Below, piece after piece: positions 28,356 to 30,878 of a stretch of DNA of 64,000 nucleotides. The stretch spans positions 5,394,001 to 5,458,000 of the forward strand of contig NZ_CP046172.1 in the NCBI RefSeq assembly GCF_011801145.1. Reading direction: 5' to 3'. Origin of the DNA: Nocardia arthritidis (GTDB lineage Bacteria; Actinomycetota; Actinomycetes; Mycobacteriales; Mycobacteriaceae). Both the position numbers and the translations under genes were made by a program. Under the pieces are notes generated by a model. The model was not told where the DNA came from and did no database searches. It saw only the letters and a list, made by a program, of their open reading frames with translations. Positions within the stretch are counted from its first letter, which is position 1. Each line of letters opens with the position of its first letter.

Positions 28356-28430
28356 TGGTGCCCCAGACGGGAGTCGAACCCGCTAACGGCCGCTTTAGAG
28401 GCGGCTGCTCGGCCGTCGAGCTGCTGGGAC
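28356..28430 (-). tRNA. tRNA with anticodon CUA (amber-reading, suppressor-type)
   Basis: The minus strand folds into a complete cloverleaf. A 7-bp acceptor stem (GTCCCAG with CTGGGGC), a 4-bp D stem (GCTC/GAGC) with a GACGGCC loop, a 5-bp anticodon stem (GCCGC/GCGGC), a 5-base variable loop and a 5-bp T stem (GCGGG/CCCGT) with TTCGACT loop are all paired. The 3' end has discriminator A and encoded CCA. The anticodon loop CTCTAAA places CTA at 34-36 (28396-28398), which reads UAG. Positions 8 and 14 are C and G instead of the near-universal U and A. It lies 45 bases after the coiled-coil gene on the same strand, so it may share a transcript. The charging amino acid is unknown. Confidence 0.82.
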
Positions 28431-28475
28431 TGTTGGGGTTGACCGGCACACCACCGGACACCCCATCATGACCGA

Positions 28476-28787
28476 TCAGGCTGTGTCCGGGTCGTCGATC
28501 CGTTCCCGCAGTTCGATGTTCGCGATTTCGTTTCTGGCGGCCCGGTACTCCTCGACCGTCAGGGAACGCCCGAGTTCGTCCAGCGTGCGCAGCACGAACC
28601 GTTGCGTGCTGACGCGGCGGTTCAGGTCGTCGAGCGCGGCGGCCTGCCGCCAGACCTTGCGTTGCAACCAGCGCGTGGCCGTCGGCAGATCCCCGGCGAG
28701 TTGGTCGCGCAACGCGTCCCGCTCGGCGGCTAGCTCGACGAGCTGCGCGCGCAGGTCGCTCAGCTGAGCATCGACGGAAATAGTCAT
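28476..28787 (-). CDS. Small coiled-coil protein downstream of the peptidyl-tRNA hydrolase
   Basis: A 103-residue, highly charged protein, almost entirely helical by composition, with heptad-like Leu spacing in the first 35 residues (LSDLRAQLVELAAERDAL) and again in the last 40. The ATG overlaps the stop of the hydrolase by four bases (ATGA), so the two are translationally coupled. The tRNA-CUA gene follows within 45 bases. I recognise no family. It may bind the hydrolase or a tRNA, but this is inference from gene order only. Confidence 0.75.
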   Translation of the reverse strand: MTISVDAQLSDLRAQLVELAAERDALRDQLAGDLPTATRWLQRKVWRQAAALDDLNRRVSTQRFVLRTLDELGRSLTVEEYRAARNEIANIELRERIDDPDTA

Positions 28788-29140
28788 ATTCTCACCTCCC
28801 CTCGTTCAGCGAAGGCGAGAGGAAGATGGGCGACCAGCCGCCGGGCGGCCGGTTCGAACGCGGCGGCCGTCAGCGCACCGCCGAGATCGGGCTCATGCAC
28901 CCTGACCAGCCGGTGGCCGGCCGCAGCGGCATCCGCGCACAGCCAACCGAGCGCCAGCTCATCGGGCGCGGCCAGCACCACCAACACGTTCGAGGTGACG
29001 TGCCAACCGACAATCAGGTCGGGATACGCGATAGCAAAGTCGAATGCGGCGTGCGCCGCCTGCGCGATCTGCGCCCCCGGCGCCAGATCTGCACGGGTGA
29101 CAAGGTAGAGGCGGCGGGGAGAAACCTAACGGTGTGGCAC
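28784..29140 (-). CDS. PTH2-type peptidyl-tRNA hydrolase with an in-frame UAG at the start
   Basis: The frame from 29125 to 28784 encodes a complete 113-residue PTH2-like domain: RRLYLVTRADLAPGAQIAQ, AAHAAFDFA, VLVVLAAPDEL and VHEPDLGG with ALTAAAFEP. PTH2 enzymes release peptides from peptidyl-tRNA. The frame is preceded directly by UAG (29128-29126), and between it and LYLVTR there is no ATG, GTG, TTG or CTG. The nearest upstream start is the GTG at 29140, four sense codons before the UAG, with no obvious ribosome site. Either UAG is read through, perhaps by the CUA tRNA 700 bases downstream, or an unusual start is used, or the gene is damaged. The rest is intact and coupled to the coiled-coil gene. 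Confidence 0.65.
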
Positions 29141-29294
29141 GAGATCAATGGTAGCCCAGCGAGGTCTACCGCGCCCGTGAATTTCCGGTTGGCAAACTGA
29201 GCGGTCCCGCGAATTCCACTGTGCCGCCGTCGAACACGACCACAACGCGCCCGCCGACCGCATCCGAGGACTTGGTCGCCGGTCCGCGCGCTGG

Positions 29295-30878
29295 TCAACA
29301 GCGTAGGACGACGACGGCGCGCCCCGATGGCGTGTGGGCCTCGTCGAACGTGGTGCGTTCGGCGATGGGGGCGGCGACGGGGCGACGGTCGAAGATCACC
29401 AAAGTGCCGGTGTCCAAACCCAATCCGTCGAGATAGCCGTCGATTTGGGCCAGTCCCTCGGCGAGTGGATCGGTCTGGTTGGCGGCCCAGACCTTCAACT
29501 CCAGCGCCTCGCGCTGTTCTACGCGCTGGCCGTCGGCATTCCGGTACGGCTGCCGGATCAACAGGTCGATCCGGCCACGCCCCACCCCGACCTCGCGATC
29601 AACGAACCCGGCTCCGTTCACAATCCGATGCAGGTACGCCATCAACACCAGTTGCGCGGCAGCCTCGTGGTAGTTATCCCGGGTCGCCAGCACATCACCG
29701 TGCTGGATCCAGAACGTGACGAACTCCCGCAGCAGTCGCGGGAAATCGATTCGGCCATCAGGGAACCGGAAACTCGACGGTTCGGCAGTGATCACCGATT
29801 CGGTGCGACCACCCAGCACCCGCACAATCACTTCCTGATAGATCGGATTCGCGAACCGCAACTGCTTACCCCGTGCGATCAACCCCAAATCCCGGACATA
29901 CCCCATGTCGTCATCGAAGGTGAGGTCCACGTTCGGCTCGGCACCGGCGATGATCGGCTCGAGTACCCGCTGCACCCTCGGCTCGTTCAACTTATCGATC
30001 AACGAATCCAAATGCGTCGCCCGCGCCAGGATCAACCGCTCCTTCGCCTGCTCCACATGATCGATCGTGATCGTCTCCCGCACCCGCATCTTGAAGGTGA
30101 TCTCCCACGCCAGGGCATTCACCAACCACGGCTGACCCTGGGTGTAGTAAAACGCCAGATCGATCGCCTTGTCGTCGAACTCCTGCCCGGTCTCGGCCGT
30201 GTGCTGCCGATACAGCTGGCACACCTCGGACTTGGTGAAATCCCCCACCCGAATCGACTCGATCTTGATATTGAACGGACTCGAAGACCCCAACCGCTTC
30301 GGATCCCCACCCGAGGCCGCCTTGTAATCCCGCACATCCCGCAACCCACACAACACCACCGAATGCGGGAACTTCTGGCGACTCAAGATGAACCCCGCCC
30401 GCAATTGCCGCAGCACTGCGAGCAGTCCGTCACCCCGCAGCGCATCGATCTCGTCGAAGAACAGCACCAGCGGACGAGGACACTTGGCCACCCATGCGCC
30501 CAACGCCGCGTGCAGCCGACTCCCCGCCGACGCGGCTGGCCACGGATCCGGTGGCAGGAACTCCGGCGCCAAACCCTCGTTCTCGGCAACCTGGCGAATC
30601 CCGCTCAGCACGGCATCCTCGACCGCGCCGACATCGTCACCGAAGGCCGCACCGAATTCACACGTCACACACAACGCCAGGAAACGACCCTCCGCCGTCA
30701 GCTCCCGCGACAACCCCAGTAACGATGTCGTCTTACCCGTCTGCCGCGGCGCGTGAACAACGAAATAAAACCCGAAATCGATATACGCCCGAGCATCGGG
30801 CAACCGCTCATCGGCGGGAATCATGTAATGCAGGTCCGGCAAGCACGGACCAACCGTGTTGAAGTACCTCACCGGCAC
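29295..30878 (-). CDS. AAA-type ATPase with C-terminal PD-(D/E)XK-like domain
   Basis: A 527-residue protein. Residues 1-340 form a P-loop ATPase: Walker A APRQTGKTTS near residue 45, Walker B LVLFFDEID near 138 and a winged-helix-like part after it (GQPWLVNALAWEITF). The C-terminal 130 residues contain GRGRIDLLI and EALELKVW, the D...ExK pattern of the PD-(D/E)XK superfamily that often ends this AAA-like family. It starts at a GTG. It precedes the PTH2, coiled-coil and tRNA-CUA genes on the same strand with a 154-base gap; co-transcription is plausible. After its TGA the same frame stays open about 35 codons, reading RVVVVFDGGTVEFAGPLSL before a UAG. Confidence 0.85.
   Translation of the reverse strand: MPVRYFNTVGPCLPDLHYMIPADERLPDARAYIDFGFYFVVHAPRQTGKTTSLLGLSRELTAEGRFLALCVTCEFGAAFGDDVGAVEDAVLSGIRQVAENEGLAPEFLPPDPWPAASAGSRLHAALGAWVAKCPRPLVLFFDEIDALRGDGLLAVLRQLRAGFILSRQKFPHSVVLCGLRDVRDYKAASGGDPKRLGSSSPFNIKIESIRVGDFTKSEVCQLYRQHTAETGQEFDDKAIDLAFYYTQGQPWLVNALAWEITFKMRVRETITIDHVEQAKERLILARATHLDSLIDKLNEPRVQRVLEPIIAGAEPNVDLTFDDDMGYVRDLGLIARGKQLRFANPIYQEVIVRVLGGRTESVITAEPSSFRFPDGRIDFPRLLREFVTFWIQHGDVLATRDNYHEAAAQLVLMAYLHRIVNGAGFVDREVGVGRGRIDLLIRQPYRNADGQRVEQREALELKVWAANQTDPLAEGLAQIDGYLDGLGLDTGTLVIFDRRPVAAPIAERTTFDEAHTPSGRAVVVLRC

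Follow-up and report, generated by a model that had tools for sequence, protein, structure and literature searches.

The genome of Nocardia arthritidis (10.0 Mb) carries, on the minus strand of the 64,000-nt stretch of DNA analysed here (the window; contig NZ_CP046172.1, positions 5,394,001 to 5,458,000), a compact cassette of two protein genes and a tRNA. Judged from its sequence, the unit is composed of a putatively leaderless gene for a PTH2-fold protein (gene 1), an overlapping coiled-coil gene (gene 2), a hairpin and a tRNA(CUA), with an in-frame TAG close to the start of gene 1 (Table 1).

Table 1 Features of the cassette and of the genes upstream of it, in window coordinates
Feature	Position	Strand	Remarks
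-10-like box TACCAT	29148..29153	-	7 nt upstream of start codon; leaderless mRNA from GTG predicted
Gene 1, PTH2-fold protein	28784..29140	-	GTG-CCA-CAC-CGT-TAG-GTT-TCT-CCC..., stop TGA
In-frame TAG, codon 5 of gene 1	29126..29128	-	21/21 distinct genomes
Gene 2, 103-aa helical coiled-coil protein	28476..28787	-	ATGA overlap with gene 1
GC-rich hairpin, gap between gene 2 and tRNA	28434..28465	-	Predicted fold
tRNA, anticodon CUA	28356..28430	-	Encoded CCA at 28358-28356; ARAGORN, Rfam
527-aa ATPase-like protein	29295..30878	-	Upstream of cassette
Papain-like cysteine protease family PF12385	30958..31686	-	115.6 bits

An earlier note on this DNA had placed an in-frame UAG before a PTH2-like domain, which we confirmed in the frame read on the minus strand: gene 1 starts at a GTG (29140-29138), and past the TAG its frame stays open until the TGA at 28784. 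The claim that no start codon intervenes also holds, ATG, GTG, TTG and CTG being absent from the TAG to codon 19 in the window, and the GTG that the note had picked as the upstream start proved to be preceded by a TAnnnT box, as in all other cassettes. The coiled-coil gene coupled by ATGA and the CUA tRNA downstream on the same strand were both recovered, the latter by ARAGORN and with the Rfam tRNA model (44.7 bits), 45 nt after gene 2. The unit extends beyond the limits originally given (28359-29140): it begins with the -10-like box at 29153, and a hairpin precedes its tRNA.

We collected the cassette from 21 distinct actinobacterial genomes representing three orders and several families. 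Duplicates were removed. Also excluded were the fragment L076, a degenerate second Asanoa copy (L057/L060) and PTH2 hits that were either weak or canonical (L001, L033, L046, L058, L059, L065-L072, L077-L079). In each of the 21 cassettes the fifth codon is an in-frame UAG (sought as a start codon, 9 nt and TAG in loci chosen by PTH2 homology, all of which passed), and ARAGORN assigns the anticodon CUA in 20/20 untruncated loci. The peptide before the UAG is MPHR, MPFR, MPHF, MPHP, VPHY, MTHR or similar, and 19 of 21 cassettes have G as the base that follows the UAG. All 21 have a TAnnnT box at a distance of 6-7 nt from the start codon, an arrangement seen at 19 of 3795 control ATG/GTG trinucleotides in the window. 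Such box-to-start geometry is that of leaderless messages in actinobacteria, and ribosomes initiating there must, therefore, meet UAG as the fifth codon.

The frame of gene 1 is, on the pattern of its substitutions, under protein-level selection, with differences at codon positions 1, 2 and 3 of 0.113, 0.071 and 0.275 within Nocardia and of 0.254, 0.200 and 0.453 across all pairs of 14 loci. Because the codon-5 TAG is kept in 21/21 cassettes while third positions differ in 45% of codon pairs, its presence is not due to chance, and the 21 genomes together with the codon-position pattern rule out a sequencing error or a pseudogene. Overlapping antisense frames, also alike between genomes, were considered as an alternative gene but rejected; they are split in two pieces in the window and, given the third-position excess in the sense frame, look like high-GC shadows. 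The usual reading of suppressor tRNAs in standard-code bacteria would be that an ordinary amber mutation in a decaying gene is being rescued. Accessible passages of PMC13092985 report such tRNAs in 0.3% of the analysed genomes among standard-code bacteria and ascribe them to nonsense mutations, and those of PMC9686282 report that three Geodermatophilaceae genomes each have one amber tRNA; a linked amber gene is mentioned in neither set of passages. For the cassette we regard rescue of a decaying gene as extremely improbable, with the same codon in 21/21 genomes of several families, a selected frame and the tRNA within the cassette itself.

Another reading treats the UAG as the end of a short leader (MPHR-stop), so that the PTH2-fold protein would arise from downstream re-initiation or a non-AUG start and the tRNA would do another job. 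Database entries lean this way: most of the 120 PTH2-type proteins listed, among at least 613 relatives, begin after the UAG place, 91 of them 2-5 residues before an R-x-D-L motif, and most of the 18 without R-x-D-L near their start begin later still. Seven more begin 8-10 residues before the motif, which puts their start past the UAG place but ahead of the first strand, and one of these (P0131) agrees with its DNA (L062), which has the UAG followed by a GTG. Three of those listed have an MPHR-like start, and one has a longer start. The cassettes, however, share no common downstream start codon; ATG, GTG, TTG or CTG occurs at codons 6-10 in only 3/21 (CTG at 6, GTG at 6 and TTG at 7), codon 6 is variable (GTT, GGC, GGT, CTG, CTT, GGA, GTG or GAC) and the first strand (residues 11-16) would be truncated by initiation from codon 13 onwards. 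We, therefore, rejected a downstream start in the main and judge this leader model to be very unlikely. Database proteins that mostly start after the stop (about 108 of the 120 listed) would hide the cassette.

The distance from the start to the UAG is constant (four codons in 21/21), whereas 10 codons separate the UAG from the R-x-D-L motif in 14/21, 8 in three, 9 in one and 11 in three. Homologues with an ordinary codon at this place, which the earlier note would have counted against its proposal, do exist but are rare among the 120 listed relatives and fall inside the UAG-bearing clade. They are P0221 (MPHRK), P0210 (MGHRD) and P0217 (MGRRH), with a sense codon for K, D or H at the UAG place. 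P0210 and P0217 nest with a Streptosporangiaceae metagenome-assembled genome (MAG) (support 94/84), and P0221 nests with Asanoa and G1161 (87/86), from which it follows that different residues probably took the place of the UAG on two or more occasions. The fixed start-to-UAG spacing, the variable spacing to the domain and the K, D or H of these relatives suggest that it is the UAG as such, near the start, that seems to be selected, rather than an inserted residue.

The tRNA of N. arthritidis is labelled 'tRNA-Pyl' by ARAGORN, and the anticodon loop CTCTAAA is found in 21/21 cassettes. Across 19 distinct tRNA sequences, 99.0% of cells are paired and both partners have changed in 7 of the 21 pairs, values that 0/500 shuffles reach for either measure, while the number of pair types (14) is not above that of shuffles (448/500 as high). 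By this covariation, the cloverleaf with its CUA anticodon is under selection. The standard tRNA core contains U8-A14 and G15-C48. The cassette tRNA departs from these pairs, in that position 8 is A (12), G (7) or C (2) and never U, position 14 is G (19) or A (2), and A15 and A48 occur in 21/21; efficient decoding is, thus, not assured. In a simple alignment of the N. arthritidis cassette tRNA with 53 host tRNAs, Lys(CUU), Asn, Glu(CUC) and Phe were nearest and Gln(CUG) came last, so that descent from a host tRNA is not obvious. A pattern search in 93 Nocardia genomes, blind to CUA tRNAs of other sequence, gave seven hits, comprising the four cassette genomes of that sample and three sites without a tRNA according to ARAGORN; the stray hits are at chance level, as the reversed pattern matches eight places. 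The N. arthritidis genome also holds extra divergent tRNAs beside its normal set (G000:C1:7067211-7067433, a second Trp(CCA) plus Leu(CAG); 9085334-9085409, an odd Glu(TTC)).

As to charging, a PF01409 search of the N. arthritidis genome for PylS gave SrmL and a 321-bit hit that we take to be PheS. With no PylS seen in this genome, a pyrrolysine system was rejected. SrmL is a PheS-related tRNA-synt_2d ligase (G000:C1:6156136-6156690; L142:1147-2268, minus; NF051887, 520 bits), also listed for the cassette-bearing species N. suismassiliense, N. tenerifensis, N. altamirensis and N. brasiliensis and found in Kocuria, Microbacterium and Brevibacterium. It is a conceivable, non-specific candidate for charging tRNA-CUA and too widespread to be a specific, dedicated ligase. 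One could still suppose that UAG-5 encodes a particular, maybe special, amino acid through a dedicated ligase, as for pyrrolysine and conceivably by SrmL: a single UAG is conserved in one protein family together with an orphan tRNA of unusual but conserved core, and the genome has this second tRNA-synt_2d protein besides PheS. However, residue 5 lies in a low-confidence tail of the structural model described below (mean pLDDT 64 for residues 1-10), the distance from UAG to domain differs in 7/21, the UAG-free relatives have K, D or H, and SrmL occurs in Kocuria and Microbacterium, where no cassette came up (genera not scanned singly). A dedicated residue, therefore, seems very improbable to us.

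The part of gene 1 after the TAG matches the Pfam PTH2 family PF01981 marginally (23.6 bits, cut-off 23); a whole-genome PF01981 search listed another, canonical PTH2 only. The NCBIfam Pth2 models gave no match for the N. arthritidis protein and 18.4 bits or less for that of D. siamense (cut-offs 126 and 82). An AlphaFold2 model with the UAG read as Q (pLDDT 91.4) retrieved 1q7s as the best match in a fold search (E 5e-7) and also matched 2zv3 and 1wn2; all 13 PDB matches at E <= 0.001 are human or archaeal PTH2-type entries. In PTH2, the GKGK and DAGRT motifs have a catalytic role. Both are absent from the 14 cassette proteins compared, which have stretches such as PPGTQ and EPDLGGALTA at the GKGK and DAGRTQ places in an alignment with PDB chains, while among seven outgroup actinobacterial PTH2 proteins six have GKGK, one GRGK and all seven DAGRTQ. 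The gene 1 proteins form a clade of their own (100/100), apart from canonical actinobacterial PTH2. Of the PTH2-like hydrolase described in the earlier note, the fold and the family match, therefore, stand, but 'hydrolase' is doubtful; with the canonical motifs replaced, the protein may bind tRNA without classical hydrolase activity.

Gene 2 can start with a 4-nt overlap in 20 of 21 cassettes, its start having been chosen by a script as the one nearest to such an overlap; in D. aurantiacum it is a GTG. The AlphaFold2 model is all helix (pLDDT 88.5), with no PDB match at E <= 0.001, and the protein gave nothing above the curated cut-offs in Pfam or NCBIfam and no match in PADLOC or PHROGs. Codon 8 of gene 2 is TAG in three of the six Nocardia cassettes (L036, L038 and L048) and CAG in the other three. 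This exchange makes glutamine a candidate for the decoded residue, yet the tail in question varies, tRNA-Gln(CUG) is the least similar of the 53 host tRNAs and relatives of gene 1 carry K, D or H. Between the end of gene 2 and the tRNA, a hairpin is predicted at 21/21 loci, differing in sequence between genera and usually, although not always, adjoining the tRNA; it might be a terminator or a processing site. Compared to shuffled sequences for 10 of the 21 gaps, its z-scores ranged from -1.6 (N. arthritidis itself, where 15/200 shuffles fold as well) to -6.1, with seven of the ten below -3.

The distribution of the cassette is patchy. A DNA search of 148 Nocardia genomes (E <= 0.001) gave any match in 49, of which six cover the unit and the remaining 43 are short stretches; genomes of the genus share the N. 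arthritidis cassette at 84-87% DNA identity. Scanning GTDB r220 with one genome per species identified 12 cassette loci (Nocardia 4, Virgisporangium 2, Dactylosporangium 2, Actinomadura 2, Asanoa 1 and the Streptosporangiaceae MAG 1); by NCBI taxonomy, those outside Nocardia belong, apart from the MAG, to Micromonosporaceae and Thermomonosporaceae. Family samples of 250 genomes each contained the cassette in nine genomes around Dactylosporangium (five already known from the GTDB scan) and in five around Actinomadura (two already known), the fifth of the latter, G1557, having a TAG visible in DNA only. A third family sample of 150 genomes yielded no additional cassette. Matches were found in 2/301 genomes of another family sample (the N. 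arthritidis cassette and one weak match), in 2/394 of a class sample (the same cassette and one weak, TAG-free match) and in 1/396 of a phylum sample (the same cassette), counts that are lower bounds because 11-15 candidates were scored per genome. Protein searches (E <= 0.001; about 8000 scored candidates and 120 listed relatives each) gave the PTH2-type relatives mentioned above and at least 1160 of gene 2 type.

Two remnants accompany the intact loci. In the degenerate second Asanoa copy, a frameshifted PTH2 gene without its 5' end is accompanied by a disrupted gene 2, and what can still be read of the tRNA is not recognised by ARAGORN. L076 (G1408) consists of a short cassette-type PTH2 fragment whose match is interrupted by a TGA; a tRNA was not found in its 3-kb locus.

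Flanking genes, compared at 13 loci, are shared inside the Virgisporangium pair and inside the Dactylosporangium pair; otherwise, three weak flank matches were seen, with the genes at differing places, and the cassette seems to stand alone. The 527-aa protein encoded upstream of it in the window has sub-threshold matches to an AAA ATPase and a PD-(D/E)XK nuclease and no counterpart in the flanks of the 12 loci compared; the gene beyond encodes a member of the papain-like cysteine protease family listed in Table 1. Direct searches with both cassette proteins found no relatives in plasmids or phages, nor did gene 2 have any in viral contigs. Gene 1 resembles the phage profile phrog_1866, a family with no assigned function (E 2.6e-12), which makes that family a distant profile relative; with no direct plasmid or phage matches, a mobile element or phage origin was rejected. 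The patchy occurrence (6/148 Nocardia genomes, 9/250 and 5/250 in two family samples), the few common neighbours beyond sister species, the degenerate copies and the phrog_1866 relative would all suit a toxin-antitoxin or anti-phage module in which an amber lock silences a tRNA-directed effector until termination fails. We consider such a module unlikely, since neither the two cassette proteins nor the upstream ATPase matched a PADLOC model at E <= 0.1, and plasmid, phage and viral-contig searches were empty as described.

Stop-codon use bears on how far UAG could be decoded elsewhere. Genes 1 and 2 end in TGA (38) or TAA (4) and never in TAG (n = 42), a count to which we attach no probability because cassette stops are not independent. 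In the window, TAG ends 8/33 open reading frames (ORFs) selected by a simple GC3 rule. UAG is, thus, not reassigned genome-wide, TAG still being a stop in the window, and suppression must be weak, conditional or tolerated. Because TAG remains a common stop in the window, one would expect a tRNA that is in short supply, poorly charged or under control, and a feedback loop would achieve this.

Taken together, these data make it likely that the cassette is a self-contained amber switch, in which the PTH2-fold protein and the coupled second protein would read out amber decoding versus release factor (RF1) termination. All three genes have decayed in the second Asanoa copy, which speaks for this switch, as does the absence of TAG among the 42 cassette stops. 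P0210, P0217 and P0221, which show that the UAG can be lost, and the lack of further cassettes in the class and phylum samples speak against it. The earlier note had proposed that the hydrolase may be made only when the CUA tRNA is charged and reads the UAG, and the comparison strongly supports this (UAG in 21/21, tRNA in 20/20); we hold with high confidence that UAG-5 would have to be read for the gene 1 product to form and that the linked tRNA-CUA would be its reader. A leaderless mRNA would open with AUG/GUG-CCN-CAC-CGN-UAG or close to it, and charged cassette tRNA would compete with RF1 at UAG-5. The PTH2-fold protein would be made only if the tRNA wins, and the coiled-coil protein would then follow through coupling, its start overlapping the end of gene 1; for each of these steps our confidence is likewise high. 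With moderate confidence, UAG-5 would act as a sensor, with output rising and falling with amber decoding relative to RF1 termination. A regulatory role of the UAG, also put forward in the earlier note, fits because the start-to-UAG distance is fixed and that from UAG to domain differs in 7/21.

More tentatively, the PTH2-fold protein might act on tRNA-CUA or on peptidyl-tRNA, giving a negative loop that would keep suppression low. As this protein lacks the canonical motifs of PTH2, hydrolysis as the means of feedback is a guess. Equally tentative is a positive loop, in which failed translation at codon 5 might cause polarity and, thus, less tRNA. Possible, although we doubt it, is a stress or defence device: depletion or blockage of RF1 by an antibiotic, phage or starvation would let the tRNA win at codon 5 and turn on the PTH2-fold effector and its helical partner. 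Such a device could be bistable, because the unit that the tRNA unlocks has the tRNA's own gene as its last part.

Several known systems share single aspects with the amber switch. The pyl operon has a tRNA-CUA together with a gene containing an in-frame UAG, and the cassette resembles it in this adjacency. The cassette differs in having no ligase gene, with only a PheS-like protein and SrmL found in the PheS/PylS-fold search of the N. arthritidis genome, and in a UAG placed at a fixed distance from the start instead of within the domain. In prfB, an early in-frame UGA reports on RF2 as a sensor of termination, through frameshifting and without a tRNA gene. The likeness is an early in-frame stop fixed relative to the start (codon 5 in 21/21 cassettes); the cassette differs by its UAG, by the position at codon 5, by its predicted leaderless mRNA and by the linked suppressor tRNA. 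Canonical PTH2 of archaea and actinobacteria (PF01981) is related by fold (1q7s, 2zv3 and 1wn2) and weak sequence match, from which the cassette protein departs in its replaced motifs and separate clade. Recoded gut phages, according to the part of PMC10879173 available to us, use a suppressor tRNA to reassign UAG to glutamine. There too, a suppressor tRNA enables UAG reading, but the cassette is chromosomal, with one or two UAG genes in a host that keeps TAG stops (8/33 window ORFs) and shows nothing to suggest recoding across the genome. Accessible parts of PMC1914089 (2007) describe readthrough with canonical amino acids as quite rare in prokaryotes, with one experimentally confirmed E. coli case; for the CS3 pilus gene of enterotoxigenic E. 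coli, those parts mention neither a linked tRNA nor a conserved codon position, unlike the cassette. The retrieved portions of PMC7824862, PMC11202043, PMC11994314, PMC8629427, PMC3218068 and PMC1914089 contain no such cassette. More broadly, none came up in open-access literature searched by full text, and within that literature the earlier note's statement that it knew of no described system with these parts was upheld.

Apart from pyrrolysine and recoded phages, programmed decoding of UAG with a tRNA dedicated to it seems nearly unheard of in standard-code bacteria. Here, the lock stands next to its key, an arrangement conserved across several actinobacterial families. Besides a natural, testable candidate for sensing RF1 activity, the cassette offers a tRNA whose core is non-standard and a PTH2 fold put to new use.
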